Below, piece after piece: positions 1,724 through 30,758 of a DNA stretch of 34,253 nt. Below the pieces are notes generated by a model. The model was not told the DNA's origin. It worked only from the letters and a program-made list of their open reading frames with translations, and made no database searches. Each line of letters starts with the position of its first letter. Within the stretch, counting starts at the first letter, position 1. The translations under genes and the position numbers were made by a program. Source of the stretch: Fragilariopsis cylindrus CCMP1102 (taxonomy: Eukaryota > Bacillariophyta > Bacillariophyceae > Bacillariales > Bacillariaceae); NCBI GenBank assembly GCA_900095095.1, contig FMBT01000623.1:1-34253 (forward strand), in the 5' to 3' direction.

Positions 1724-4714
1724 ATGATGTTGGATATTCAGAAAAAGATGACGATTCTTTTAAGTCTGTTTAGTATGACAGCATTGTCAGTTATAATGAG
1801 CATGACTAGTCCTACCACGTCGTGCGAGGCATTCACATTATCATCAAGCAGCAGCAGCAGCTCGACGATGACCCGAATGGTTGCCTCTTCATCCTCATCG
1901 ACTACTTCTTCTTCAACAACAACAACAAAATCGTCGTCTTCGTCGTCTTCTTCTTCGCTGACACTACCTAAAACACAATATCCAGATCCAAATTTAAACA
2001 ATCCATGGTATTCCACCAAAATTCAAACTGATATGTCCTATTCGACAAAAGTAAAATCATTATATTTACGTCATTGTGTTGTAGAACGAAAAGAAACTGC
2101 AGAATTAGCATTAAATTGGTATCTACAATTAACCAGTGGTGGTAGTGTTGAAAATGTTGGTACTAATAGTGGTGACGACGTCGAACAAGTCGTGATTCAT
2201 ACCAGTCGTGATCCATTCGGTGATGTGACAAAGCAATTATCAGCCTGTACAATGACAAGAGAAGAAGGTGGGAAGATTGGTTGGGTCGACATAGAAGTCA
2301 ATAAAAAATCAAATGAACTGACCTATTCAAGTTTAATACCTAGTGATATTCTTAAGAATTTAATTGAATTACAACCCAAAGCTGGGGATGTGCATATCAT
2401 TGGTCCCTCATCCAGTAGCAATCAAGTACATTTAATACGTGTAGAAGAATTATATATACCAAATATTGTACTACCAACTGAAAGAAAATCATTATCCACA
2501 TTAACATCGAGTAGTAGTAATAGTAATGGTAGTAAAAATGAAGATAAACTTGGTTCATTTAATGGTATAAATGCATTAGTATCACGTAACAAATTGAAAG
2601 GACATGGTACGTTGCGTTACTCGATAGATATTGTTTTACATTCTGTTTTGAATTAAAAGATCATTTTTCTTCTAATCGTTCATTTGCTCACTCACACACT
2701 CACTCACTCAAATTCACTCACACAGGTGTTATGCCAACTGTACCAAAATTTACAAAGACACAAAATAAGAATGGTGATAGTAACGATGACACAAATCAAA
2801 ATACAAATCCGAAACAAAAACAAAGAACATACGCAATTCAAACAAATGGTTGTCAAATGAATGTAGCGGATTCCGAACGGTTAGAAGGTATATTACAAAA
2901 TGAATTAGGATTACAACCAATTAATATGGATGAATCGTATCGTCCGGTGAATAAAGTAGAATTAAATACTGCCGACGTGATTATATTTAATACCTGTTCG
3001 ATACGAGATCATGCAGAACAAAAATTATATGATGCATTAGGACCATTCCGTGCCAGGAAACGACAAAAGCAGGTAGAAGGTGATACCAGTAATAGTGATT
3101 TTGCATTAATTGTTACTGGTTGTGTGGCACAACAAGAAGGTTTAAGGTTATTACAAAAAATACCTGAAATTGATGTTGTATTAGGACCACAATATGTACC
3201 ATATTTATCAGAAGTATTAACAAAAATTGAATGGGGATATCAATTCTGTTTAACAGAACCAACTATTATTATTGATAATTATAAAACAAATTATGATGGT
3301 AGTTCGTCGAGTAGCAGTACGAGTACGAGTATGAGTACGAGTAGTACAACAATAACTCCATCATCATCGACAGAGTCATCATCGATAGAGTCATTATCAG
3401 AGTCATCATCAACCTTAACAACAACAGCAACTCCATCATCGTCGTTGATGTTAGGACAACAACTTCCTGAAAATGATGATTTTTCATCGAAACCTATTCG
3501 TGGGCATGCAGTACGTGCATGGGTTAATGTTATATATGGTTGTAATGAACATTGTACATATTGTGTTGTACCAGCTAGTAAGTTTGATGCGTCTTTTGTT
3601 ACTGATGCTATTGATGCTATTGATACTTTGCCTGGTGTTTGGCACGTAATCGTGTTGTTGTAATCCTTTTTCTCACTCATTATATTTCTTCTTGTTGTTC
3701 TCAATCCTTCACAACACTTAAAACAAACACAAACAAAACAAATAAGCTCGTGGAATGGAACAATCACGGAGTATGGAAAGTATATTAGAAGAATGTTTAG
3801 ATTTAATTAATAATCGTGGTTACAAAGAAGTTACATTATTGGGACAAAATATTGATGCGTATGGACGGGATATGGTCCCAAAACGATCATTTGCGGATTT
3901 ATTACATTATCTTAATAGTAATTTATCATCTATAACCAGTAAATGCAGATTACGGTACGTAACATCTCATCCACGATATTTTTCAGATCGTGTAATTGAT
4001 GCAGTATCAACATTACCAAGTGTTTGTGAATGTTTTCATATGCCATTCCAGGCAGGTGATAATGATGTATTACGACGAATGAGACGTGGATATACATATG
4101 AAAGTTATATGAAAATTATACATAAGATACGCACGGCGTCACCTGATGCAGCAATAACAGCTGATGTTATTGTTGGTTTTCCAGGTGAAACAGAAGAAGC
4201 ATTCCAACGTACATTAGATTTAATGGATGAAGTTAAATTTGATAATTTGAATTCATTTGCATACTCAGCACGTCCAAATACAGAAGCAGCAACATGGACC
4301 AACGATGATGCTACTACTACATCTACTACTGCTACGTCTACAACTATCGATCTCACGACGACTGTTACGGACGATGATGATGATGATGATGATGATGATG
4401 AAGACAAAGCAGTAGTAGAGAATTATTTCGTTGTACCAGAAGAAGTGAAGAAGGAACGATTGGCACGTGTACAAGAATTAGCAGTACGGAATGGATTAGA
4501 ACGTAGTCAACGATATCTTGGTCGTGTCATTGAAGTTTTAGTTGAAGATAAAAATCCAAGAAATAATGGACAAGTTATGGGACGTACAAGACAAGGCCGT
4601 CAAGTATTCTTTGATGGTATCATTGATGAATTAAAAGGAGAATTTGTAGATGTAGAAATAACAGAAGCAAGAACATGGAGTTTGATGGGAAGACCAATAA
4701 CAAATAACGAATAA
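1724..4714 (+). CDS. miaB: Plastid parvulin-type isomerase fused to MiaB tRNA methylthiotransferase
   Basis: Three exons (1724-2606, 2726-3577, 3747-4714) join in phase into 900 residues. Residues 1-36 are a signal peptide ending SCEA, followed by F37, the plastid import site. Residues about 105-245 resemble a PpiC/parvulin prolyl isomerase: RHCVV, GGKIGW and HLIRVEE match the family, with both typical histidines kept. The rest is MiaB: cluster cysteines C337, C385 and C427, a radical-SAM CxxxCxxC at 567/571/574 (YGCNEHCTYC), and a TRAM domain from about 833. AWVNVIYGC and LLGQNIDAYGRD match cyanobacterial MiaB, pointing to plastid origin. The known family reaction adds a methylthio group to i6A37 of tRNAs, using two [4Fe-4S] clusters and S-adenosylmethionine. 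Ser-rich (about 487-546) and Asp-rich (about 763-804) inserts are unusual. A GTG at 1721 precedes the ATG. The MiaB assignment is strong; the isomerase assignment is moderate. Confidence 0.88.
2607..2725 (+). other. Intron 1 of the isomerase-MiaB gene
   Basis: This 119-base intron runs from GTACGT to CACACAG. Splicing joins KLKGH to GVMPTVPK in phase (split Gly codon). It sits in the linker between the isomerase and MiaB parts. If retained, translation would stop at 2654-2656, leaving only the isomerase part. Confidence 0.8.
3578..3746 (+). other. Intron 2 of the isomerase-MiaB gene
   Basis: This 169-base intron runs from GTAAGT to AATAAG. Splicing restores CVVPATRGMEQSRS, matching the family motif CVVPxxRGxEQSR that follows the radical-SAM cysteines. 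That makes the junction essentially certain. Confidence 0.88.
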
Positions 4715-4822: not shown

Positions 4823-6517
4823 TTAGCGGAGTACTCTCCAAACAAAGCCGATGGAATTAAGCTTATCAAGGCGTTCTTTTAGTAGTTTATTCTTATTGAA
4901 AACTTTTCGCTGAGTACTTACCCACCGACCGAGTGGGGGATCTTCATCGTATGGTTTTGGTACCATTGTATGTTTATGCAACTTATTGTACGCAACAAGT
5001 TTTTGAAACACATCATCCCATTTTTCATATTTCTTTCCTTGAACTCCTTCCCATTCAAAGTCAATCGAATTCAAAAGGTCGAGTCGATTGGAAGGCATAT
5101 CATCATTTTTGTATATACCACGTTGTTGACTAACCCACTTTCCGAACTTGGGATCTTCGTCATATTGACTTGGCACCATCGTATTCTTGTGTTTCTCCTT
5201 GTACACAACAAGTTTTTTAAACATTCTCCTCCATGTTTTATCATATAAGTTCCATGCAAAGTCAATCGAATTCAAAAGGTCGAGTCGATTGGAAGGCAAT
5301 TCATCATTTCTGTATTGATAACGTTGTCTACTAACCCATAGACCGAGTGGGGGATCTTCATCATAATGACTTGGTACCATCGTATGATTATGTATCTCCT
5401 TATAGGCAACAAGTCTTTGAAAAGTCTTTTCCCAATTTGTATCATGCAAGCTCTTGTTATCAATTCGTCTTCTCTTTCCTCTTACTACTGGTGACTTTGA
5501 ACCTTTATCTTGATTGCTATCAGCGCTGTCTTCAGTTTCATCGCAGCTTTCTTCATCATCGCTGTGATCACGAGTACGTTTTCGATTTGTAGGACGCACA
5601 TCACCTTTACTGTTTTCTATGTCATTCTTCATCGCACACCTACTGCTACTGCTATTGATGTTGATGTTATTACCATTATATAACACCCAAACACTATCAC
5701 GTGGTTCTGTCTTGATCTTTTGTTGCATCCCTTCATTTATTCTATCATTATTATTATTGTGGTTGTGGTTGTTGGTGTTGCCTTCATCGTTACCGACGTC
5801 ATCGTCTGCCTTTGTTGCTGTTGTATCATCATGTCCTGCGATATTAGTAGTAGTGATAGTGACAGTGACAGCGTCGTTGTCGCCGTTCTTGTTGGTGTTG
5901 TAGCTTTTAGCCATGACGTCGGCGACAGTAGTAGTAGTAGTAGAAGTGGTAGTCGATAAGGTATCGTAATTATTGACGACAGGTAGGGCGATAGTAGTGC
6001 TAGGCGCAGCAGCAGCAGCAGTAGCAGCGTTATCGTTGTTGTTATCATTGACGACGTCATCATCGTTGTTGCTGTAGTCACAATAATATGGATGATTCTG
6101 ATACAATTCCATATATTGTGAATTAGCAGCAACAGCAGCAACAACAGCAGCAGTATCATCAACATACGTATTTGTATCTGCATTCGGCAACACCACGCTG
6201 GTAGTAGTAGAAGAAACATAATTATTCATAGTTGCCATCGCTTCTGCCATTACTATTCGTAATAATTCATCACCATCGTCAACATCAACGGCGTTATTAT
6301 TATCGCTACTAGTACTAGTACTAGTACTACTATTACTCATGACTGATATCGGTTTAATTTCTTGGTTCTTCCATTCAATATAATCATCATCGTTCCAACT
6401 GTCATTATTGACCTCCACCATCACCTTTCGTAACAATTCTTCACCGTCATCAGCAACATCGATGATATTGTTGTTCATAACGTAGTTATTATCACTACTA
6501 GTACTAGTAGTAGCCAT
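4823..6517 (-). CDS. Helicase-associated (HA) domain protein, three HA repeats
   Basis: This 564-residue frame starts at the ATG at 6517. Three HA domains lie at about 361-427, 428-499 and 500-564. Each has the family pattern: an aromatic start (W..xFQxLVAYK), a VPxxYDEDPxLGxWV core, QR, then RLDLLNSIxFxW. HA domains are small tryptophan-rich helical bundles, thought to bind DNA. They were named from bacterial helicases and are expanded without helicases in diatoms. There is no helicase motif here. The N-terminal part is low complexity (Asn, Asp, Thr, Ala) with a duplicated module, DDGEELLRKVM and DDGDELLRIVM. NRKRTR and RGKRRR are likely nuclear localisation signals, and KIKTEP fits a SUMO site. 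It ends 108 bases from the convergent 1724 gene. A nuclear DNA-binding or regulatory role is inferred; the target is unknown. Confidence 0.85.
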   Translation of the reverse strand: MATTSTSSDNNYVMNNNIIDVADDGEELLRKVMVEVNNDSWNDDDYIEWKNQEIKPISVMSNSSTSTSTSSDNNNAVDVDDGDELLRIVMAEAMATMNNYVSSTTTSVVLPNADTNTYVDDTAAVVAAVAANSQYMELYQNHPYYCDYSNNDDDVVNDNNNDNAATAAAAAPSTTIALPVVNNYDTLSTTTSTTTTTVADVMAKSYNTNKNGDNDAVTVTITTTNIAGHDDTTATKADDDVGNDEGNTNNHNHNNNNDRINEGMQQKIKTEPRDSVWVLYNGNNININSSSSRCAMKNDIENSKGDVRPTNRKRTRDHSDDEESCDETEDSADSNQDKGSKSPVVRGKRRRIDNKSLHDTNWEKTFQRLVAYKEIHNHTMVPSHYDEDPPLGLWVSRQRYQYRNDELPSNRLDLLNSIDFAWNLYDKTWRRMFKKLVVYKEKHKNTMVPSQYDEDPKFGKWVSQQRGIYKNDDMPSNRLDLLNSIDFEWEGVQGKKYEKWDDVFQKLVAYNKLHKHTMVPKPYDEDPPLGRWVSTQRKVFNKNKLLKERLDKLNSIGFVWRVLR

Positions 6518-6540
6518 GATTGATTGATTCGATTATTGTT

Positions 6541-7402: not shown

Positions 7403-8851
7403 TTATAATATTTTACGTAAAGTCAAGATTTTGCTTGGTAGTGGATCTACAGATGATATTACTTTTGTTGTTGTTTTTGATAGTATTGCTGTTATCTTAT
7501 TAATTTCATTTTCATCTTCATCTTCGTTTACATCATCATCATTAGTCGATGCAATGTTTTTGATCTTGTTGTTATCATTGTTAGTAGCAGTACCAGTGTT
7601 TGACAATCTTGATATTGTTGTTGACATTGTTGATGACGACGACGATGTTGACATCCAATTTGATTTTTCATATCCTAATAAATTTTGATATAATTCAATT
7701 GCTGCTTGATTGTTTTCTTCGACACGGATCCATATATCATTTAATAGTAATTGTGGTGGTTGTTGTTTATTTTTATTTCTATTCCTATTATGAATCGTAG
7801 TATTTAAATGAATCACAAATTGTTCGGATTCTAGTATTAATTGTTTTGCTAATCCTTTTCGTCGATGATTGATATCAATTATTAAATCAGATAGGTACGG
7901 TCTTGGTAATTTTAATTTTAATTCTGAATTTGAAGTTGAAGTTGAAGTTGATGATGATTCATTTACAACAACAGAAACATATGGTCGACAATCAATATCA
8001 CAAAAACCAACAATTTCTTTTGATTTGGACTTTGTTGTTGATTGACTGATATCATCATTATTCTGTGTTGTTGCTGTTGTTGTTGTGATTGTTGTTATCT
8101 TGATTGCTTCTACTATTAGCATCCGATGTCTGTCTTTATTCATATATGGATAATTTTGTTGTAGTCGATTTAATTCACCAGTAATTTCAATTTCAATTTC
8201 TATTTCTGGATTCATCTTACTATCTGAATTTGAATTTGAGTTTGAGTTTGCATTTGAATTTGAATTTGTATTTGTAGTAGTATTATTATTATTATGATAA
8301 AATCCATTTATTATTAATGTAGCAACTTGATTTAATTCTTTAAAAGAACAATCACGGATTTTATATTCTATACTACTATTTACATCCTCATTATCCTTAT
8401 CTTTGTCTTTATCTTCTTCTTCTATGATTTGTACTAGCTGCGGCGAAGATGATACTGTGTCCTGTGACGTGGTTGACGTTGACGTTGACGTCGACGTCGA
8501 CGATGATGATGATGATGATGATGATGATAAAATACTGAGTCGTCGTTGCCTGTAGTTACTGCCATTGCCAGCATTGCTACTTACGCTATTGTTAATTGTA
8601 GCAATTGTAGTCCTAGCAGTGGCTCTAGTAGCAGTAGCAGTATGTGTTGTAGGTGTAGGTGTAGTTGTGAATGCTGTTGCTACATCATAAGTACTAATTT
8701 TTTCTTTGTTGGTGAAGTTGAACATCATTATCATTGTTAGTAATAATGAAATAATCGACGAATAGTAACAAGATGAAGCAGTATATTTCCAATTCGATTT
8801 CGAATTCGATCTTGTCGTAATCATTGTTGTCGTCATTGGTGGCCTCGTCAT
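7403..8851 (-). CDS. Plastid-targeted GNAT-family N-acetyltransferase
   Basis: This is 482 residues from the ATG at 8851. The leader has a hydrophobic stretch (IISLLLTMIMM) and then DVATA|F at 60/61, the A|F plastid import site, followed by a Thr-rich transit region. The GNAT fold covers about 160-400: IEYKIRDCSFKEL at its start, RPYLSDLIID (strand 4), then the acetyl-CoA loop HRRKGLAKQLI at about 330, matching the (R/Q)xxGx(G/A) signature. DIWIRVEENNQAAIELYQ and LGYEK form the last conserved part. Long Asn/Thr/Ser inserts split the domain, and the C-terminal tail is low complexity. Plant plastid GNATs acetylate protein N-termini and lysines; the closest match and the substrate here cannot be assigned. 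The gene diverges from the aldehyde dehydrogenase gene across about 740 bases. Confidence 0.8.
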   Translation of the reverse strand: MTRPPMTTTMITTRSNSKSNWKYTASSCYYSSIISLLLTMIMMFNFTNKEKISTYDVATAFTTTPTPTTHTATATRATARTTIATINNSVSSNAGNGSNYRQRRLSILSSSSSSSSSSTSTSTSTSTTSQDTVSSSPQLVQIIEEEDKDKDKDNEDVNSSIEYKIRDCSFKELNQVATLIINGFYHNNNNTTTNTNSNSNANSNSNSNSDSKMNPEIEIEIEITGELNRLQQNYPYMNKDRHRMLIVEAIKITTITTTTATTQNNDDISQSTTKSKSKEIVGFCDIDCRPYVSVVVNESSSTSTSTSNSELKLKLPRPYLSDLIIDINHRRKGLAKQLILESEQFVIHLNTTIHNRNRNKNKQQPPQLLLNDIWIRVEENNQAAIELYQNLLGYEKSNWMSTSSSSSTMSTTISRLSNTGTATNNDNNKIKNIASTNDDDVNEDEDENEINKITAILSKTTTKVISSVDPLPSKILTLRKIL

Positions 8852-9592
8852 TTCCGTTGTCTTTAAAAGTCGTTTCAGAAAAAGAAAAGAAAAAGAAAAG
8901 AAAAACTCTAGCTTTGTTTAGCTATAGCTATAGCTAGTTCATTGCTTTGTTTAGCTGGGACTATCTAGTATAGGGTCGATATACTTCCGACGGTATTATG
9001 TCCTCGGCCGTGTGTGGTTGGTTGTTGTTATGACGTGACGTGACGTTATGTCGTGTGATGTCATGTCTGATGTTGTAAGAGTATGTTTTATTTTAAAAAA
9101 AGATCCAAAATAAGGCAAAGATTCGATGATTCTATTCGACTCACTCGACTCATCAGTCGACCTCATTTTTTTAACGTGAAAAGATCGCGGCGGAAGGAGG
9201 AGGTAACTTAGGGAGGACTTGAAAGTTTATTTTTATTTTTTCATCAGCCACAATTTATTTTTACGACGGATCGTAGTCCATTCACGAAGGATTTATTTTT
9301 ACGACGGACCGTTAGATTTCATTCATTCATTCGAGGTTCTTCGCATTCATTCACGGTTCGCTGTATATTTGACGCTATCATGACATATTATCTTCTTCGC
9401 TTTCCTCCTTTTTCTTGCTCTTCTTACCAGCACACTAACTTTGCACAATCCAAAAATACAAATAATACAGGAGAGGAAAGACTCACTCCTCAACATCCTC
9501 CATCTCTCTCTCACTCTCACACACTTTCTGCAAACAGTATCTCTGTCAACACCACAAAAGAACACAGCCAGAGGACAGCCAAACCAACAAAC
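8852..9592. promoter_or_regulatory. Divergent promoter region, GNAT and aldehyde dehydrogenase
   Basis: This 741-base gap feeds the minus-strand GNAT gene and the plus-strand aldehyde dehydrogenase. It holds the block at 9133-9188 shared with 1104-1165, a self-complementary GCTATAGCTATAGC stretch near 8920, and a CT/CA-rich leader before 9593. An in-frame ATG at 9380 is open into the dehydrogenase, but the added 71 residues look like leader sequence. Confidence 0.5.
9133..9188. promoter_or_regulatory. Shared divergent-promoter block, copy 2
   Basis: It contains TATTCGACTCA, then CGACTCATCAGTCG (inverted half-sites), CTCATTTTTTT, and AACGTGAAAAGATCGC. The order and sequence match 1104-1165, with insertions and deletions between parts. 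It lies about 280 bases from the GNAT ATG and 405 from the dehydrogenase ATG. Confidence 0.4.
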
Positions 9593-11889
9593 ATGCGATT
9601 TCCATTTACAAGTATTCGTGCAGCTGCTACTTCTACTACTAGTACTAGTAGATGCGCAAGAGCAAGAGCAGGATTAATAACAGCGACAACGACCAGGAGG
9701 AGTAAACGATTCTCGTCTTTGTCTCTCATCGTCGCAGCGTCATCATCCTCAACAGCAGCAGCATTCTACTCCACAACAATAAGATCTTCCGTATCAACGA
9801 TATCAACAACAACAACGTCGTCGATTGGTGGCTGCTACTACCAGTCGTCGTCTCTGTGTCGTCGTAGCTTCACGTCAACACCATCGTTATCGTCATCCGA
9901 ATCTGAATCTGAATTCGAATCATCATCATCATCCCTACTATATCCAGATATACGTTCCTATGATAAACAATATATTCATGGAAAATGGATTCATTCCACA
10001 AGAAATCAAGATACTAATCCAAATGAACGTACCTTAAATGTCATTGATTCCAATACATCCAATATCATTGCCACTATACCCAATGGTACCAAACAAGATA
10101 CGATCAAAGCAATTACTGCGGCAAATACTGCATTGCCAAAATGGCGTTCAACACCACTCAAGATAAGATTAAAGTATATACGTACATTTTTAGAAAAAAT
10201 TGAATTACATCGTGAAGAAATTAATAATCGATTAAGTGTAGAATTAGGTTGTACCAAAAAATTTGCTAATGATGCACAATTAGGATCCTTAATTGGACAT
10301 ACCATCACAGTATTAAATTTATTAGATACTGATAATGAAAATGAAAATGATGATAATGGTAACAACAAAGATGAAAGTAAATTTCAATGGGACTATGCGG
10401 CTGGTAAATGTACAGTAGTGAAAGAACCAATTGGTGTAGTGGGTTGTATCACACCGTGGAATTATCCATTAAATCAAATTGCATTAAAAGTAATACCAGC
10501 ATTATTAGCTGGATGTACAGTCGTCTTAAAACCATCCGAAATTACACCCTTATGTGCCTACTCCGTCTGTGAAGCCTTTCATGATAGTGAGTTACCACCA
10601 GGGGTCTTTAATATGGTAATGGGAAAGGGTCCCGAATGTGGTGAAATATTAGCAGCACATGAAAATGTAAATTTAGTATCCTTTACTGGTTCCACACATG
10701 CTGGACAAATCTTAACAAAAGTTGCCGCGGAATCCGGAACCATGAAACCAATCAAGACGGAATTAGGTGGAAAATCTGCTTCACTGTTGTTAGACGATGC
10801 TAACTTCGATAAAGTGGTACCTGTCTATGTCAAACAATTAACAAGTAATACCGGTCAATCCTGTAATGCATTAAGTAGAATGATCGTACCACGATCTGCT
10901 TATCAAAAAGTGGTGGAGTTATGTATACAAACAATGAAAACAGAAATTATTGGTGATTCACGTTATAATTCCAAAGCAACTATTGGTCCATTGGTGAGTC
11001 AAAAACAATATCAGTCGGTGATATCCTTAATAACATCTGGTATTCAGGAGGATGGTGCCACATTATTATATGGTGGTCTAGAAAAACCATCCAATATAGT
11101 AGAATCCAAAGAAAATGAAAATGGATACTTTGTCCAACCCACATTATTTGGTGACGTTACTAACGATATGATTATAGCTAGAACTGAAATTTTTGGTCCG
11201 GTCTTATGTTTAATACCCTATGATACAGTAGAAGAAGGGATTGAGATTGCCAATGATACACCCTATGGATTAAATAATGCTGTTGCGTCCAATGACATTC
11301 AAAAAGCATTACAGGTGGCAGCACAGTTACAAAGTGGTATGGTACGTTCTATATATATATATATCGTTGTTTTAAAAAAAGCGGTATGGCGGAGGATCAT
11401 ATACTATGATTTGTTTTCGAAACGAAACGGAATCGATTGATCGATCGTATCATGGCATGGGATGGTATGGCGTGAAATGGAATGGATACGTTGTATCATC
11501 ATGCTGAGGCCGTTGATTGGTTGGTTGATTGATTGATTGATGTTGTGCTGCCTCGCACTACTCTTTGCTCCCCGATCTCCTTGCTGCTTCATAATATGTT
11601 AGCTATTCCCGCACCACAGGATTTTTTTCTCGCCCCATGTATATACCGTACCACCCATTCACTCACTCTCACTCTTCGTTATTATTATCTACTATTTTAT
11701 TTTATTTCTATTATTATTATTACTATCTTACAGGTTATGATCAATCATACAAATTTAGATTTAAAAGCACCGTTTGGTGGATATAAATTAAGTGGTAATG
11801 CACGTGAATGGGGTGAAAGTGGATTAGATGAATTTTTAATAACAAAAATGATTAATATGGATATAAATGAATATCGTAAAAATAAGTAA
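9593..11889 (+). CDS. Aldehyde dehydrogenase, NAD(P)-dependent, with organelle leader
   Basis: Two exons (9593-11341, 11734-11889) join in phase to 634 residues. ALDH-superfamily marks are TPWNYPLNQ (Asn290), KTELGGKS (general base Glu390), the nucleophile Cys424 in NTGQSCNA, and TEIFGPVL. Exon 2 supplies APFGGYKLSG and AREWGESGLDEF. The Glu-to-Cys spacing of 34 equals that of mammalian ALDH2, so the active site is complete. The enzyme should oxidise an aldehyde to an acid. It resembles the betaine-aldehyde/broad ALDH group, but the substrate cannot be read. The first ~110 residues are rich in Ser, Thr and Arg with almost no acids, typical of a mitochondrial presequence. An AAAF later in the leader leaves plastid targeting possible. 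I chose the ATG at 9593 because upstream sequence looks untranslated; 9380 is the alternative. Confidence 0.87.
11342..11733 (+). other. Intron of the aldehyde dehydrogenase gene
   Basis: This 392-base intron runs from GTACGT to a pyrimidine- and A-rich TACTATCTTACAG. Splicing joins QSGM to VMINHT in phase and restores the conserved C-terminal ALDH motif. It starts with an AT repeat and contains GATT/GGTT repeats. Confidence 0.88.
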
Positions 11890-21183: not shown

Positions 21184-22143
21184 TTATTTCTTTCCCTCTC
21201 TAGTTGTTGGAGAAAAAAGATCGGTAAGCGAAGCCAATCTCCTTTGATGCGTACTCTCTTCCGTCCTGCTACTACTACTATTGCTGGGACGGCTTCCGGT
21301 AGATTTTGTAGCCCACGATGTACGAACTTCGCCAGAATTGCGAGCTAGATCTGAGAATGAGTCCCCCAATATTGATCCTTCTAGCAATTTGTTGTTGTAG
21401 CGGCTAATACTGCTACCATCCCCACAATTGTTGCTATCAACGAGGGGAGCAAAATCATTTCTCAGAAAGGTGTTATGATTTGCTGCTGGTTTACCTTTCT
21501 TGCGACAATTTTTGTTGCTGCCAGTACCATCCCCACAATTGTTGCTATCAACGAGGGGAGCAAAATCATTTCTCAGAAAGGTGTTATGATTTGCTGCTGG
21601 TTTACCTTTCTTGCGACAATTTTTGTTGCTGCCAGTACCATCCCCACAATTGTTGCTATCAACGAGGGGAGCAAAATCATTTCTCAGAAAGGTGTTCTGA
21701 TTTGCTGCTGGTTTACCTTTCTTGCGACAATTTTTGTTGCTGCCAGTACCATCCCCACAATTGTTGCTATCAACGAGGGGAGCAAAATCATTTCTCAGAA
21801 AGGTGTTATGATTTGCTGCTGGTTTACCTTTCTTGCGACAATTTTTGTTGCTGCCATCAAAATTTTCAAAGCCGCCACCAAAATCATTGCGCCATCCCTC
21901 TTCTACCGGTAGGGAAGCCATACTTGATGTGCTCATAGAAAACGACCGAGAAGACGCGGAAGAACTCCGAGACGATGATATTAAATCTGACAACGATTGT
22001 GACCTTCTAAGCTGTCGCGGTCGAGTTGTTCCCCTTGAGATACTAGGTGAAGTACCACTTATTGTATGAGACCCTCTAAAAGTTCCACCCTTGCGAGGAA
22101 CTTTTGGTGGTGCAACGAACGGTGCTAAATCTGATCCGGACAT
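21184..22143 (-). CDS. Unknown protein with four 37-residue tandem repeats
   Basis: The protein has 319 residues from the ATG at 22143. The N-terminus (SDLAPFVAPPKVPRKGGTF) is followed by a Ser/Arg-rich region with RRSQSLSDLI. Four tandem 37-residue units then start at 97, 134, 171 and 208. Each has NKNCRKKGKPAAN, then FLRNDFAPLVDSNNCG. The units are nearly identical; a His/Gln exchange marks one copy. The C-terminus has RRLASLTDLFSP, echoing the SLSDL motif. RRxxS contexts look like kinase or 14-3-3 sites (inference). The basic CRKKGK and acidic-to-neutral DFAPLVD parts alternate. LAPFV and WRNDF near the N-terminus look like the source or relics of the repeat. There is no signal peptide or membrane segment, and no family is recognised. 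The frame is convincing because the termini are non-repetitive and the start is clean. Confidence 0.65.
   Translation of the reverse strand: MSGSDLAPFVAPPKVPRKGGTFRGSHTISGTSPSISRGTTRPRQLRRSQSLSDLISSSRSSSASSRSFSMSTSSMASLPVEEGWRNDFGGGFENFDGSNKNCRKKGKPAANHNTFLRNDFAPLVDSNNCGDGTGSNKNCRKKGKPAANQNTFLRNDFAPLVDSNNCGDGTGSNKNCRKKGKPAANHNTFLRNDFAPLVDSNNCGDGTGSNKNCRKKGKPAANHNTFLRNDFAPLVDSNNCGDGSSISRYNNKLLEGSILGDSFSDLARNSGEVRTSWATKSTGSRPSNSSSSRTEESTHQRRLASLTDLFSPTTREGKK
21415..21856. repeat. Coding minisatellite, four 111-bp units
   Basis: Units begin at 21415, 21526, 21637 and 21748, exactly 111 bases apart, and are near identical. The unit length is a multiple of three, so the gene stays in frame and both opposite-strand frames are also open. 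Confidence 0.95.
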
Positions 22144-22179
22144 AACAATAATTGTATTTGAATTTGTATCTGTATTAGA

Positions 22180-22224
22180 ATCTTCCTGATCGAATGGGGG
22201 GGGGAGGTAATTGATGTACGGTGT
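22180..22224 (+). promoter_or_regulatory. Second copy of the spaced 16+12-base element
   Basis: It has the same two blocks and the same 17-base spacing as 19213-19257, but with a G9 run in the spacer. It lies 37-81 bases upstream of the minus-strand gene starting at 22143, so its orientation relative to the gene is opposite to that at the antenna gene. Confidence 0.5.
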
Positions 22225-23562
22225 AGCAGGACTGCCTTCTTGATTTGATGCGTTTGTGTGCTGATGATGAGGGATGATGGATCTGATAGAGGGTAATGAG
22301 GGATGTGGGTTAGAAGCTAGTTAGTTAGTTAGTGCTGATGAGGACCTAAGGCCGTCCGCATCGCAATGGTTTCCGTAAACAAACAATCCTTGGCTAGTCG
22401 TGTTGAATCAATCATGCCACAGGGCAGAACTAAACAAACAACAATCAACGACAGGTATAGTGTCTACTTACATAATGCCTTAAAAGATCTAAGATCGAAT
22501 GATCGAATGAATCGAATCGAATCGAATCGGATTGTGTATTGGATTGTGTGTATTTGATTGTATTGAATGTATTGATTGTGAACGGTACAGTATTGTGATT
22601 TTGTATTGGGTCTGCGTTGTTCCTCTGTATAAAAAATTGCATTGGAGTTTTGAAACTTTTAAGGCGTCGATTGATTCATTCAAATCAAAATCAAATACAC
22701 CGTAAGTACAGATAATTTGCGAGAAGTTTAGCGTGATTGAATTTTGGATTTAACTGTAACGTTAGTGTGTGAATGAATGAATCAATCGAATCAATCAATG
22801 AATCAAATCCTTTTGTCAAGCAATTGAGTCCCTGATCGATATTATACGGGATTCGTTGACACTTACTTTAGCTAGCGTGCTTTATGAACGAAATTTTGAT
22901 CACGTCAAAGAAGAAGCAAACTCTTTTCAAATTTTCTCTGCTTCTACTAACGTTACAGTGCTGCTGTACTCTAGGAGTTCCACAGCGCCTTAAAATTAAT
23001 ACGCGCTTATTACGCGTGTGTTTTTTAGTGAGGAAGTTCTTCTGTTCTGTTAAAGAGATTTCTAATATGTCGTCGATGTTGCGCTTTTAAGAATAAAATA
23101 GAAACAGAAAAAAACACAGTACAAAATAAAATCGAAACAGACAAAATCACAATGAAGGAACAACAGACAACAGACAACAATATTCATACGACGTCGTCCC
23201 GTGAGCGTGAGGACGACATAGTAATACGATGATGAATGATAAATGGCGACATTTCGCTGTGTCTGTTGGGTAACTTAGCGATCGAAAAATTAATTAAAAC
23301 GTGTTCGATATGATTTTTTTTCGCGTAATAGTTTAAGAACCAACAGCATCGACGAATGGTTTTAAAACTAACTAGCACTCGGCACGAGTTAATTCGATAG
23401 AATAGAGGAGGGAGGTATATTTTTTGACAAATCAACAGAACACAAGGCAAAATAGAGAACAACAAAAAGCTCACAACTTTTTCTTCTGGCTAATTCCAAA
23501 AGACTTTTAACTTACTTACTCAACAAACTTCTACAAGTTACTTTTCAATCTCTTCAATCAAG
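22225..23562. other. Intergenic region
   Basis: No credible gene was seen. The region separates the divergent genes at 22143 and 23563. It holds GAATC repeats near 22500-22530 and a 14-base inverted repeat (22753-22766 and 22946-22959). The last ~60 bases are a CT-rich leader for the 23563 gene. Confidence 0.5.
22753..22959. repeat. 14-base inverted repeat flanking about 180 bp
   Basis: ACTGTAACGTTAGT at 22753-22766 is repeated exactly as its reverse complement at 22946-22959. No target duplication is obvious outside it, so a small transposon is possible but not shown. Confidence 0.4.
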
Positions 23563-24984: not shown

Positions 24985-26852
24985 ATATATAGGTGGTATG
25001 TAAAAAAACAACAACAATTGTCGTAAATTAAAAATCATTATGTACATTATATAAAATGAAACGGACGGTGAAATCAATTATTGAATTGGAATTGAAATCG
25101 GAAAGGGAGTGGAAATGGTTTGGAATGATTCGAATGGTTATTATATTATGATTACGTGCTTATTTATGTTGGCGGGATGGGATGGGATTCGTTCTTGACT
25201 TTACGTTTTTGGTTGATGTTGATTATAATACTGTTTTTTTGTGGTTGGTTGGTTGGTTGTCATTGGGGTATCTTATTATTATGAATTATTATTATTGGTT
25301 TAAAAATTGTGAGTATGTATTTTCGTTTGATTAGTGTAAGGGGGACGGCCCCATTTGTACATGATTCTAAAGGAGTTAAGTAGGACAGGAACCTGTGAAC
25401 GGATGTACGCATCTGGTTGACACAGCTGTCTGAAAGGTGATGGATAGTCAATTGAAAAATGGTGGCATAAAGGTAGAAATCAACCCACCCCTTTGGCAGC
25501 AACCCACATACCTACCCGGAATACATGATACATGCACTAGGCCATTCGTGGCTGAAACGAAAATATATACGATCTTTTTTTAAACTAAATAATAATAACA
25601 ATAATATATGCACCCGATGGGCAACGGCAACTCGAATAGAAAACTGGTATTTTGGACAACGGATGACTTTAAGCAACGAGAAAGAGGCGGATGATAGGAT
25701 TTCCAACAACGTTACGGTGCACAACAATCATATATGTAAAAGACCGGGTACAATCATTGACCTGTGTTCACTTCACTTTTTCTATTACAATTTTGTGGAT
25801 GGAAAATGAGATAAAATAAATCTCTTGTAAAATAACAAAAAAAATATTATAAAAATAAAAATAAAAAATAAAAGATAATGCATAAAAAGATATGTATAAC
25901 AAAATAAAATAAAAAAATTGTTAAAAGAACAAAATCCACTTCGTTTATTCTAATACACTTTCAGTCTTCTTACTACTAGCTAGAGTTACTATATATATTT
26001 ATATCGTTCATCCTCTATTTAGACTTACAGTAGAGAGCATACCGTTCGGTAGTATAGCAAAATTGTAACTTCTTTTTTGTTTTGTTGACTACGTATGTGC
26101 CTTCCAGCAGGAGTTGTTTAGTGCATGATATGTTATGGCCTACTAAAGTATTATAATATATATGATTCAATCGTAATGGTAGTTATTTGGATTTATTTTG
26201 TTGTATTTGAGTACATTATCGTTCCATCACTATCTTCGTTTTTGATGTCTCGCTCATGGGGTTGAAACGGGTGACCTTAGCCCTCTATTTTGTTGGTAGA
26301 TCTTAATATTTTAAGGTTTTAGAGTGTTAATAATTACCGAATAACATTCCTCGCGTGGTAAAGTTAGCGTTGTACGGACGGAGGAAGTACAGTACGTCAA
26401 TTCACAATTTGCGTGTGCACAACGATCAAAAATCAAACAAAATCATATCATGCTCATTCAATTTCACAACTATATACCACAATGGGATGTACCTTGCTGC
26501 AACTTCTCTTCACAGTAGGAATATAAGAATAATAAGAAAGACATCCGTAGATACAGTTGCAGTCGTCGTCGTTGACTATTTTCTCGTGGCATTAGTTTCG
26601 ATTCTAGGGAGGCGGTACGGTGCAACTTTCGATTTTCTCTACTACTCGGTGCCCATAACAGTTAGCAACGTATTAAGAGAAGATATATTTGCATTACATC
26701 CTGGTTAGGTGTAAATGAACAAATCTTACAAACAAAAATTCAAATCAGAAATAACAACAACAGCAACGACGGTACGCGACGGTACGTACTAGTAGCTGTT
26801 GATTTCATTTCTAAACAGATCCGGTCCGCCTTGTAGAATAATATCAGGAAGT
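24985..26852. other. Intergenic region
   Basis: No credible gene was seen in about 1.87 kb. The left end is the 3' end of the 23563 gene, and a (GGTT)n run lies near 25246-25258. 25840-25920 is very A-rich with ATAAA motifs. The right end is the leader of the 26853 gene, including two CGACGGTACG copies near 26767-26785. An acceptor-like CTAAACAG at 26812-26819 may mark a 5' UTR intron. Frames such as 26355-26708 lack an ATG at the head and any family feature. Confidence 0.5.
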
Positions 26853-29048
26853 ATGAATACTACTTGCTGCAAGATGATTCATGACAAGAACGAAGACAGC
26901 AGTAAGATATCTGCTACTGATAGTCCTTCCACTACAAGTAGTAGTAGTACCGCAACAATAATTGCTACAACGGATACAACATGTAGAAACAACAACAACA
27001 ATCCGTGTTCGAACAACGCCATCGGTAGCAATGGCGGTGGTGTTGCTGCTATTCTTCGCGCGAATAATGATAACGATCCACCGAACTACTACGGCGACAG
27101 CAGTAACAGCAGCAGCAATAATATCGATGACGATAAGAAGAGGGATATCATCATCACCAATCGCGTTGTTGGACAAATTAAAATAACGAAGGAAGAAATA
27201 AATCCGTGCTCGAACAACGTCATCGGTAGCAATGGCGATGGCATTGCTATTCTTCGCGCGAATAATGATAACGATCCGAACAACTACTACGGCGACAGCA
27301 GCAGCAGCAATAACGATGGCGTTCAGAATAGGGATATCTTCACCAAACGCGCTGGACAAATTAAGATAAAGAAGGAAGAAATAAAAGGTATGCAGCACTA
27401 TAATAATGATAATAATAATACATACCTCGCGAGTTGTGATAAAAATAAAAATAATAATAATAATAATCTTGATGATAACTCTTATGCTGATTGGGAAGTT
27501 GGTAGTTGGTGTTGGCTGCTACCCACTGCTAAAAATCATAAAGATGATATAACCAATACTACTGATAGGAAGAGAAAACAAAAGCAGAAGTCTCTCCTCG
27601 ATAATAATACTATCAATGAGGATGGCAACGATGTCAATTATGGTGATCCTCCTCCTGCTGCTGCTGGGAATAATGCGTCCATTAGGAATGATGACGGCAT
27701 ATACAAGGACAACGACAACGACAACGAAGAAGAACCAATGAAGAAAAAGATGAGGATGAAAGACAACGAGGATAAGAATAATGAACACATAACTGATACC
27801 ACCACCCCCATGAACGATACTATCAAAACCAAGAATAATCGTCGCGATAATAAGGATGATAATGGTTATGAATCATGGATGACAGGGAACTGGTGTTGGC
27901 TCCTACCCGCTGATCGTAGTATAGAGTTGAAACGGTGGAAGTCGGATACGAACACCGGTCAACTCAATAGCAGCAGCAGTTGTAGCAGTAGCAACAGCAA
28001 CAAAGACGACGATGATGATGATGAAGAGTTGGTCATTAAACAAGGAGGAAAGAGCGGCAACGATGGTCCCCGAGAAGAAGATATTAGCGATCAAGATATC
28101 GATGACGATGATAAGGATAAGGATAAGGATAATGATGGTTACGAATCATGGACGGTAGGGAATTGGTGTTGGATATTACCTCCTTCATCAGATGAATCGA
28201 TGACTGAAGAAACCGCAGAACATCGTCGAACGGGTGTTGTCCCTACCGTCAACGACACTACTAATATTCGTGTCCGTAGTTCACCTCGTCGCCGTTGTAG
28301 CTCCTCCTCCGTTCATCGTCTCCTACACGACGATGATGAAGACGACGACGACGACGACGACTTTGAGGATAATCGTAATAATGAACGAATTAATTCAAAT
28401 ACAGGAAAAATCACCATGAGCTACAAAAGATGGCATACTGAAATATGGCACGAAATGTACCAGAGACTTGCTGCGTACAAAAAACAGCACTACGACTCTA
28501 CTAGTGTTCCTCAAGGGTATAAAGCAGACCCAAAACTCGCAATTTGGGTTACGACTCAACGGACACTGTATAGGAAGAATGAAATTTCCGAAGAGCGGAT
28601 CAATTATCTTGATTCGATTAGTTTTGTTTGGAAAACTTTAGAAATATTTCCATGGGATGAAATGTTCCAACGGCTTGTGACTTATAAAAAGAAGTTCAAG
28701 TCCACATTAGTTCCGCAGAAGTATCCATATCTTGGACGGTGGGTGAGTACACAGCGGGCATATTATAATAAAAAAGAACTTTCCGTAGAGCGGATCAATC
28801 TTCTTGAGTCGATTGGTTTTGTTTGGAATCCACTTGATGAGCAATGGATGGTAATGTACCAAAAACTTGTGACTTACAAGAAACAGCATAGGTCAACCAA
28901 AGTGCCGTGGAATTATACGGATGATCCAAAATTAGGCATATGGGTCATGCGTCAACGTCAAGTCTATAATAGTACCAATTCGAGTATTTTGACAAAAAAG
29001 CGCCAGGAACTTCTTAGTTCCATTGATTTTACTTGGTCAGCGAATTAA
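26853..29048 (+). CDS. Helicase-associated (HA) domain protein with SWCWLLP-type repeats
   Basis: The protein has 731 residues from the first ATG in frame; an upstream TTG at 26799 is not a plausible start. Three HA domains end the protein at about 530-599, 600-663 and 664-731. They show YQRLAAYKKQH, DPKLAIWVTTQR and RINYLDSISFVW-type motifs; the middle one lacks the DP residues and is shorter. The N-terminal half is low complexity with two repeat classes. A 60-residue tandem duplication carries SNNxIGSNGxG, LRANNDNDP, NYYGDSS and GQIKI. Three copies of W.VG(S/N)WCW(L/I)LP lie at bases 27482-27526, 27865-27909 and 28135-28181. IKKEE fits a SUMO site, and RKRKQKQK and RRRCSSS are possible nuclear signals. 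DNA binding is inferred from the HA family, with no helicase present. It is a distant relative of the genes at 4823 and 31773. Confidence 0.85.
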   Translation: MNTTCCKMIHDKNEDSSKISATDSPSTTSSSSTATIIATTDTTCRNNNNNPCSNNAIGSNGGGVAAILRANNDNDPPNYYGDSSNSSSNNIDDDKKRDIIITNRVVGQIKITKEEINPCSNNVIGSNGDGIAILRANNDNDPNNYYGDSSSSNNDGVQNRDIFTKRAGQIKIKKEEIKGMQHYNNDNNNTYLASCDKNKNNNNNNLDDNSYADWEVGSWCWLLPTAKNHKDDITNTTDRKRKQKQKSLLDNNTINEDGNDVNYGDPPPAAAGNNASIRNDDGIYKDNDNDNEEEPMKKKMRMKDNEDKNNEHITDTTTPMNDTIKTKNNRRDNKDDNGYESWMTGNWCWLLPADRSIELKRWKSDTNTGQLNSSSSCSSSNSNKDDDDDDEELVIKQGGKSGNDGPREEDISDQDIDDDDKDKDKDNDGYESWTVGNWCWILPPSSDESMTEETAEHRRTGVVPTVNDTTNIRVRSSPRRRCSSSSVHRLLHDDDEDDDDDDDFEDNRNNERINSNTGKITMSYKRWHTEIWHEMYQRLAAYKKQHYDSTSVPQGYKADPKLAIWVTTQRTLYRKNEISEERINYLDSISFVWKTLEIFPWDEMFQRLVTYKKKFKSTLVPQKYPYLGRWVSTQRAYYNKKELSVERINLLESIGFVWNPLDEQWMVMYQKLVTYKKQHRSTKVPWNYTDDPKLGIWVMRQRQVYNSTNSSILTKKRQELLSSIDFTWSAN

Positions 29049-29948
29049 GATGGATTCAAAGTACCAGTAACAGCAAAAATAAAAATGTTTTCTCATGTAT
29101 TTTCTACTTCTTTCCCGTCGCTTTAAGATTTTTTAAAAGCATACTCTAATACAAAATCAGATCTCCTAGATTCATGCCTTGTATAGTGTGGTACATTTTA
29201 CTGCTGTAATGACATGTGTGATTCTTACATTAGGCTAGTAGAATAGATAGTTGGTTTACAAGTTGTAAATCCTCGTGTGTTTTCTTCTTCTTCTATTAGT
29301 GGTGAGCACCAGCAATCTGGCAATTCAGTAAATTTTGAGGATTATTAGAGTGATGCTTTCAGATACCCTCCCTTGACTGCCACCACATGCTAGCCAGCTG
29401 TTGTATGTACATGTTGTAGTTTCTCCTTTACATATGTATTCATGCAGCATAATATAACCTATCAAAGGAATAGCTACCACACATCCACTGTGCCACATGC
29501 TGTCAGTAAATCAACAATCTGACATGCCACCATCTATCTTATACTGTTACTCTTCTTTTTTGTCCAACATTGAATGAAGACACATCATTAATTCAAGGAG
29601 GGTAAAATTTAATCTACTAACTGGTGCTATGATTTTACATCATGTGCATGCATTTCTCATATAACCTCTAAAGAATAGTAAGTACATTTAACTTTTGACT
29701 TAACAATTCTAGCAGTTTGTTTGTTCCCATTTTTTAATTAAGAAAAAAACAGATTATTGTTAGTTTTCTTGGATCCTCTTCTTTGATGTGGTCTGTCTGT
29801 CAGCCCGTTCAACAATTATCTCTTTTGCGGAAATCTATCTTTCATGCATGCCTTTTTCTTGTGTATCTTTCATCTTTCGACGAGCATGTTGCTAACTAAG
29901 CACAAAAAGTTGACAGCCAAAAGTAAACAAAAGAAGACAAGTAAGAAG
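29049..29948. other. Intergenic region
   Basis: No credible gene was seen. It contains the 3' end of the HA gene and the leader of the MYND gene. ATGs at 29844 and 29886 are in frame with the MYND gene and would add 35 or 21 residues. Confidence 0.5.
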
Positions 29949-30758
29949 ATGGATTACCGCAACCTATCAACAGAAGAAAAAGAAAAATACCAATTTGATG
30001 ACGATATGCGATTTCCAACATCGGACTCATTTGTTCGTGGGAACGAAGCATTGTGGGAACAAGGAGGTATGCAAGAGGACAGTATGGCACTATTCGTGAA
30101 GGGTGCCGAAGCTGGTTGCGTATCTAGTATGAATAATGTTATGGGTGAATTGACCAACGATGGAAAATTCCATCATGCTCTTGCTTGGGCATTAGAGGCA
30201 GCGATCCGTGGTGGTCGAGGGGGTATTATGATACTGAACGATTGTTACGCAGCATCCAACAACATTTATTCACAAAATGCGCATGCATTGAGTATGTATT
30301 GGACGAGGATGCTATATGAACGGGGACCTGAATCAGTTGATATTCAAGCTGCTGATCAACTTGAGGATGATATCGGCAAAAAGTGCTTCCAATGTGGAAG
30401 GAAAGATTCAAAGAACAAAGTTATTTTAAAGGCATGTAGTATGTGTAACTTCTATTTTTATTGTAATAAAAAATGTCAATTAAATCATTGGAAGGAGGGG
30501 AAACACCGAGGAGAATGCCATCAACTATCCCTTTTGAATAAATATCATAAACCATACGCAAAAGAAATCCGTGATAAAATTATTCGTGGAGATGATCCGA
30601 AGTTGATTAAAGAACTACAAACATTACGAAGAAAGTTAGGATTGACACGCCCACGAGACGAATATGACGACGAATCATTATTTAAGAACAGATTTTTTCT
30701 ACTTGTTGCTAGAAATGATGGGACTGTTTGGTATGGATCAATTCCAAAAGTCATCTAA
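29949..30758 (+). CDS. MYND zinc-finger protein with Sel1-like N-terminal region
   Basis: The protein has 269 residues from the ATG at 29949, chosen for its context (GAAGATGG) and the soluble start MDYRNLSTEEKEKYQ. Residues about 50-115 resemble Sel1/TPR-like helical repeats (MALFVKGAEAGCVSSMNNVM, then ALAWALEAAIRGGRGG). A complete MYND finger lies at about 146-190: CFQC, CSMC, FYCNKKC and HRGEC supply the zinc ligands in the family order CxxC, CxxC, YCxxxC, HxxxC. MYND fingers bind proline-rich partner peptides and usually mediate protein contacts. There is no SET domain, so methyltransferase activity is not indicated. Sel1-MYND proteins are common in diatoms and mostly uncharacterised. The tail (TLRRKLGLTRPRDEYDDES) is charged, and the end GTVWYGSIPKVI is followed by a TAA. 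Confidence 0.82.
   Translation: MDYRNLSTEEKEKYQFDDDMRFPTSDSFVRGNEALWEQGGMQEDSMALFVKGAEAGCVSSMNNVMGELTNDGKFHHALAWALEAAIRGGRGGIMILNDCYAASNNIYSQNAHALSMYWTRMLYERGPESVDIQAADQLEDDIGKKCFQCGRKDSKNKVILKACSMCNFYFYCNKKCQLNHWKEGKHRGECHQLSLLNKYHKPYAKEIRDKIIRGDDPKLIKELQTLRRKLGLTRPRDEYDDESLFKNRFFLLVARNDGTVWYGSIPKVI

Follow-up and report, generated by a model that had tools for sequence, protein, structure and literature searches.

A parvulin-like domain fused to a probable plastid MiaB in the diatom Fragilariopsis cylindrus

The 34,253-nucleotide contig FMBT01000623.1 of the diatom Fragilariopsis cylindrus CCMP1102—the window, analysed over its whole length and labelled C705 here—carries at positions 1724 to 4714 of its forward strand a gene (gene A) for a predicted tRNA i6A37 methylthiotransferase, MiaB, in which a parvulin-like domain precedes the MiaB domains. 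As judged from the sequences this fusion is genuine, because a second gene of the same genome (gene B, the MiaB paralogue on contigs C169 and C451) has the same domain order. The novelty lies in a parvulin-like domain, probably functional, that has been added to an otherwise ordinary MiaB. The best explanation of the whole, which we hold with about as much doubt as confidence, is a genuine fusion that seems to predate the duplication behind the two genes, a probably plastid-targeted MiaB, and a parvulin domain that folds or matures this MiaB in cis. Published work is cited by PubMed Central (PMC) number and from excerpts.

The fusion in gene A and its paralogue

The genome (67.9 Mb in 818 contigs) was searched with Pfam profiles for both parts of the fusion. 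In keeping with its diatom origin, it also holds silicon transporters (PF03842, up to 757 bits), a family that occurs in a few further algae as well. PF00919 (UPF0004, the MiaB N-terminal domain) gave 11 matches on eight contigs, which form four pairs: the window and C505, C169 and C451, C97 and C148, and C38 and C342, with C148, known by its score, assigned to C97 because the two scores are equal. Two of the four pairs are fused, and no unfused copy of this type of MiaB was seen among them. PF00639 (Rotamase) gave 23 matches, including C169 and C451 at 31.4 bits, and on these two contigs the PF00639 and UPF0004 matches lie inside one uninterrupted frame of 338 residues. By general likeness we take C97 to be RimO-like and C38 and C342 to be CDK5RAP1-like; the latter gene is a single 830-residue frame on C38 (L021) and two overlapping frames of 459 and 371 residues on C342 (L022), where the change of frame, at about positions 4077–4125 of L022 in a CAA-type repeat, reflects either a frameshift in one haplotype or an error in the sequencing.

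Gene B encodes 713 residues in three exons; the first of its introns interrupts the N-terminal domain of MiaB, and the parvulin domain leads into the start of MiaB with no intron between them. The protein scores over the cut-off with PF00639 (31.0 bits for the whole protein and 33.1 for the domain; cut-off 21.7), with PF13616 (Rotamase_3; 30.5 and 37.1 bits; cut-off 22.5), and with the profiles for radical S-adenosylmethionine (SAM), UPF0004 and TRAM domains. Its parvulin domain alone finds PrsA in the PDB (E 6.9e-6), and its MiaB part matches 7mjz over residues 8–442 of 443.

The N-terminal parts of the two proteins share 28 identities in 98 positions (E 9e-12 in a one-sequence comparison), and over aligned columns identity is 30/112 for the parvulin part and 246/441 for MiaB. 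A search of the whole genome with the parvulin domain of B at E<=10, which scores loose first-look candidates only (all four were scored here), returned just the two copies of B and the two copies of gene A (E 1.9e-7 and 3.6e-7); the other rotamase genes of the genome, which reach up to 77.8 bits with Pfam models, were absent at that threshold. A parvulin-type domain had been placed at about residues 105–245 of gene A by an earlier, sequence-only reading of the window, and this placement is borne out, since the region aligns with the over-threshold domain of B and is found by it genome-wide.

Gene A itself consists of three exons that join in frame into 900 codons and a stop, with introns running from GT to AG. 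Exon 1 (1724–2606, forward strand, as are all features of gene A), an open frame ending at a GT donor, encodes residues 1–294, comprising a leader, a low-complexity serine-rich stretch, the parvulin-like domain and a linker. Intron 1 (2607–2725, 119 bases, missing from B) falls in the linker. Exon 2 (2726–3577) completes the linker and goes on through the N-terminal domain of MiaB to the cysteine motif of radical SAM, directly 3' of which lies intron 2 (3578–3746, 169 bases), whose joint restores CVVPATRGMEQSR; exon 3 (3747–4714) encodes the remainder of the radical SAM domain, the TRAM domain and the stop. The coordinates and both splice joints of the earlier reading proved correct, and a second copy of the gene on contig C505 (L019, 891 residues) has the same three exons. 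We interpret the window and C505 copies as haplotypes.

Exon 1 might instead be a parvulin-like gene of its own, with exons 2 and 3 forming a separate MiaB that begins at the methionine codon at 2731, and the unspliced frame of exon 1 does continue to a stop at 2656. Such a gene-model artefact is nevertheless extremely improbable: paralogue B carries the parvulin domain and the MiaB N-terminus in its uninterrupted 338-residue frame, the GT-AG intron 1 is base-for-base identical in both copies of gene A, and a MiaB beginning within exon 2 would have no leader. Two separate genes were rejected through the same frame of B, which also makes two separate transcripts, the outcome that the sequence-only reading had set against its own proposal of one spliced chain, very unlikely. 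That proposal agrees with the in-frame exons of A and with B, where the parvulin domain and the start of MiaB are read without a break.

In a 15-row tree, the MiaB parts of genes A and B fall in one group (100/100). Ten of the rows are MiaBs of bacterial or viral-contig origin, none of them known to be cyanobacterial; C38 and the RimO-like protein are also included and sit on long branches, and sampling is sparse. As the parvulin domain of B finds that of A and their MiaB parts group together, a single fusion probably came first and was followed by duplication into two MiaB genes. Gene conversion, or two fusions drawing on one parvulin, are possible alternative origins.

A bacterial source of a ready-made fusion was sought and rejected, scans of viral and genome contigs having given MiaB loci and parvulins in other proteins. 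The former include stand-alone MiaBs of 441 and 492 residues (L023 and L025; a third MiaB locus, L024, lies at a contig edge and is unread), and the latter are L026 and L027; two further scans of viral contigs confirmed no relative. A profile of A and B found matches in 297 of 297 genomes of one bacterial phylum. These rows are the best piece per genome, so that frame length is informative and match start is not, and among the matches listed none of 150 of MiaB type lies in a frame longer than 581 residues, which leaves little room for an extra domain in those MiaBs. A plasmid search with the parvulin domain of B returned one record, annotated as a peptidylprolyl isomerase; MiaB matched 101 plasmid records, with no cyanobacterium among the 20 matches listed. 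Among the titles and abstract openings listed from the open-licence literature, none describes a parvulin–MiaB fusion; protein databases may hold the architecture unremarked.

Identity, selection and catalytic residues of the parvulin-like domain

The domain of gene A occupies residues 107–246 (positions 2042–2461). Judged alone it is weak, and the call as a parvulin becomes convincing because of paralogue B; we use the term parvulin-like since its scores lie below the Pfam cut-off. PF00639 gives 14.8 bits over the full protein, 18.5 bits over residues 92–255 and 17.8 bits in the genome-wide scan, against the cut-off of 21.7, and PF13616 gives no match in the protein search or in the genome scan (cut-off 22.5). 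NCBIfam returned nothing over cut-off for the domain, with a single chance-like match at E 0.19, and phmmer found no match in the PDB at E<=10. On the window alone the earlier, motif-based call of a parvulin domain would be no more than tentative, the direct profile check having fallen short with PF00639 and given no match with PF13616; homology to the over-threshold domain of B supports it.

Profiles were further tested by comparing the score of the gene A domain with the best of 2000 shuffled copies. Built from six of the genome's other parvulins, the profile gave 6.4 bits, below the best shuffle at 8.1; with L026 and L027 added the score was 20.8 bits (shuffles <=7.8), and with L026, L027 and paralogue B it was 28.6 bits (shuffles <=7.6). 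The latter two tests are partly circular, because L026 and L027 were both fetched by patterns from the A/B alignment, one of them the GG-IGW motif; the pairwise comparison of A with B and the genome search with the parvulin domain of B are free of this circularity. A four-row profile that adds L026 and L027 to the two diatom proteins A and B has as its best PDB relatives the parvulin domains of SurA (E 6.3e-15) and PrsA (1.5e-10), and the bacterial rows pull that way. SurA and PrsA are bacterial foldases acting in trans.

Could the N-terminal domain of gene A resemble a parvulin in its motifs and have another fold? The sub-threshold PF00639 score, the empty PDB search with the domain alone and the missing signal with the six in-genome parvulins point in that direction, as do structure predictions of low confidence (predicted local distance difference test, pLDDT, 63 and predicted template modelling score, pTM, 0.60 from three sequences; pLDDT 47 and pTM 0.43 from a single sequence). 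Set against these are the significant match to the over-threshold domain of B, at the same place in the chain, and, within the limits of their circularity, the scores far above those of shuffled copies for the profiles that include L026 and L027, with or without B. We regard a different fold as very unlikely.

The two copies of gene A, a single pair, differ at many places and were compared codon by codon. In the parvulin core (residues 105–139 and 161–245) there are 16 silent and no replacement changes, a pattern that speaks for a translated domain with some function and for purifying selection on the core. The leader (residues 1–99) has 13 amino-acid and 16 silent changes, and the insert that interrupts the core (residues 140–160) has three replacement changes and one silent; leader, insert and two low-complexity parts pooled give 29 silent and 32 replacement changes, a ratio different from that of the core (Fisher P 8e-5). 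Outside this comparison class, UPF0004 (10 silent, 0 replacement) and radical SAM (9 silent, 0 replacement) are likewise free of replacements, and the linker (3 silent, 2 replacement) and the C-terminal residues 801–900 (3 silent, 5 replacement) are not. The two copies of gene B (L017 on C169 and L018 on C451) show no DNA difference over 2440 bases and are therefore uninformative on selection.

The catalytic residues of Pin1 are H59, C113 and H157, with S154, and its pocket is formed by L122, M130 and F134 (PMC8530231). The catalytic His/Cys/His positions align with H117, C175 and H236 of A and with H123, C156 and H214 of B. In NifM, a triple change at G, H and L abolished function (PMC12691677); at the matching place, read off the alignment, B has G-Y-H and A has Q-V-H. 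With the pocket described below also considered, B could plausibly catalyse isomerisation, and for A this is doubtful.

Cysteine rather than aspartate at the central catalytic position of both proteins invites the idea of a redox switch, in which C175 of A or C156 of B would sense plastid peroxide or thioredoxin state and tune the speed of MiaB maturation, much as in Arabidopsis PIN1At, where H2O2 oxidises the matching residue Cys69, which forms dimers and is reduced by thioredoxin (PMC8716364). The same cysteine is, however, present in all six of the other in-genome parvulins that were aligned, so its retention is no evidence of a switch, and we judge this function improbable.

The pocket is less well kept. 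In A its Met and Phe align with Asn and Tyr, in B with Lys and Leu, in a stretch where the alignment is uncertain and beside a four-residue insertion; catalysis may be lost because of these two replacements. The objection is softened by the bacterial relatives L026 and L027, which are also without the pocket Met and Phe (Thr/His, Leu/Ile). The loss of both pocket residues in both paralogues, the adjoining insertion, and the fast-changing insert at residues ~140–160 of the gene A protein would suit a docking module with no isomerase activity, one that holds MiaB to the plastid ribosome, a membrane, MiaA or an iron–sulfur (Fe-S) carrier. A pure scaffold would not need the catalytic His/Cys/His positions, though, and these are kept in A and B; in NifM, moreover, the two-hybrid contact with the client came from the N-terminal part and not from the PpiC domain (PMC12691677), so a parvulin domain need not anchor well. 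We consider docking possible, and clearly less likely than a part in the folding or maturation of MiaB.

Leader, MiaB domains and neighbouring genes

The N-terminal leader of gene A (1724–2023, residues 1–100) has, by eye, a hydrophobic stretch running to ..TSCEAF, followed by a Ser/Thr-rich region. It looks like a diatom plastid pre-sequence, with ..SCEAF.. presumably comparable to the ASAF-type plastid cleavage motif; from this we infer a plastid location, gene A being a nuclear gene whose MiaB is probably plastid-targeted.

The MiaB part had been called complete, and it is: the gene A protein scores 386 bits with the MiaB equivalog model TIGR01574 of NCBIfam (cut-off 355.3) and exceeds the Pfam cut-offs for UPF0004 (PF00919, 73.7 bits; 2830–3186, residues 330–448, the genome match having the same coordinates), Radical_SAM (PF04055, 91 bits; 3523–4222, residues 561–737, split by intron 2) and the RNA-binding TRAM domain (PF01938, 55.8 bits; 4508–4696, residues 833–895). 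All the expected cysteines are in place in the translation, namely C337, C385 and C427, which we take to be those of the MiaB auxiliary cluster, and C567, C571 and C574 of the radical-SAM CxxxCxxC motif. Gene A thus shares UPF0004, radical SAM and TRAM domains and cysteine motifs with MiaB as known from TIGR01574 and the structures 7mjz and 7mjv; it differs from the bacterial MiaBs examined in its leader, its ~140-residue parvulin-like domain and its Ser/Thr/Asp-rich inserts.

Elsewhere in the window, two long frames carry tandem W..L..Y...VP..LG.WV..QR repeats, one at 4823–6532 on the reverse strand with three helicase-associated (HA, PF03457) stretches at 187.8 bits, the other, by eye, at 26796–29048 on the forward strand. 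Close to the MiaB gene is a GNAT acetyltransferase frame with low-complexity inserts (7403–8917, reverse strand; PF00583, 24.3 bits). An aldehyde dehydrogenase whose frame has a long N-terminal extension (9212–11440, forward strand; PF00171, 410 bits) and a MYND zinc finger protein (29787–30758, forward strand; PF01753, 31.8 bits) were also recognised, and a frame at 21184–22320 on the reverse strand contains four near-identical tandem repeats of ~37 residues (SNKNCRKKGKPAAN.NTFLRNDFAPLVDSNNCGDG; by eye).

A proposed role in MiaB maturation

Plastid MiaB would be imported unfolded, refold, and take two [4Fe-4S] clusters. The role that we find most likely for the tethered domain, by analogy with NifM and NifH, is in this folding and maturation. 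Joined to the MiaB domain by a flexible linker and acting in cis, the parvulin domain would bind or isomerise prolyl segments of MiaB during refolding after import into the plastid, and the same domain could be at work while the two [4Fe-4S] clusters of MiaB go in.

A parallel on this reading is NifM, in which a PpiC-type domain serves an Fe-S enzyme: it is predominantly the PpiC domain that matures the [4Fe-4S] protein NifH, and Pro256 is implicated (PMC12691677). NifM differs in that it stands apart from its client and has a binding domain of its own, whereas in the fusion the domain belongs to the client. Among the proteins that co-purify with the isomerase PpiB of Escherichia coli is MiaB, which does so less with PpiB R43A (PMC7353009). 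In the plant rhodanese-parvulins AtPin3 and TaPar32 a parvulin is likewise joined to an unrelated sulfur-related enzyme domain, a C-terminal rhodanese-like one in their case and no MiaB (PMC9797600). MiaB is counted among the predicted Fe-S enzymes of the apicoplast (PMC8844926), and i6A37/ms2i6A37 are confirmed in chloroplast tRNAs (PMC8877259); these apicoplast and chloroplast MiaBs, compared by description only, are like gene A in being predicted plastid tRNA methylthiotransferases, and the excerpts of both papers leave a parvulin domain unmentioned.

Several observations weigh against a maturation role or the fusion behind it. To the sub-threshold and null profile results for the gene A domain, the altered pocket and the short bacterial frames given above must be added that NifH proteins from bacteria lacking nifM need no PpiC domain in order to mature (PMC12691677). 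PpiC-type help would therefore be no general need. PpiB, for its part, is a cyclophilin rather than a parvulin.

More tentatively, and rather against expectation, the plastid-type MiaBs of diatoms, perhaps of all red-derived plastids, might have a built-in parvulin that matures them in cis, like NifM and NifH in one chain and possibly redox-gated through the parvulin cysteine. If this is true, the built-in parvulin would tie the fidelity of chloroplast translation to the state of protein folding. Organellar radical-SAM enzymes need refolding after import and loading with oxygen-sensitive clusters, and to our knowledge how these two steps are assisted is largely open. The fusion points to plastid MiaB as a candidate client of isomerases, and offers one protein in which to test whether Fe-S enzymes are acted on by prolyl isomerases, as has been argued for NifM and NifH.

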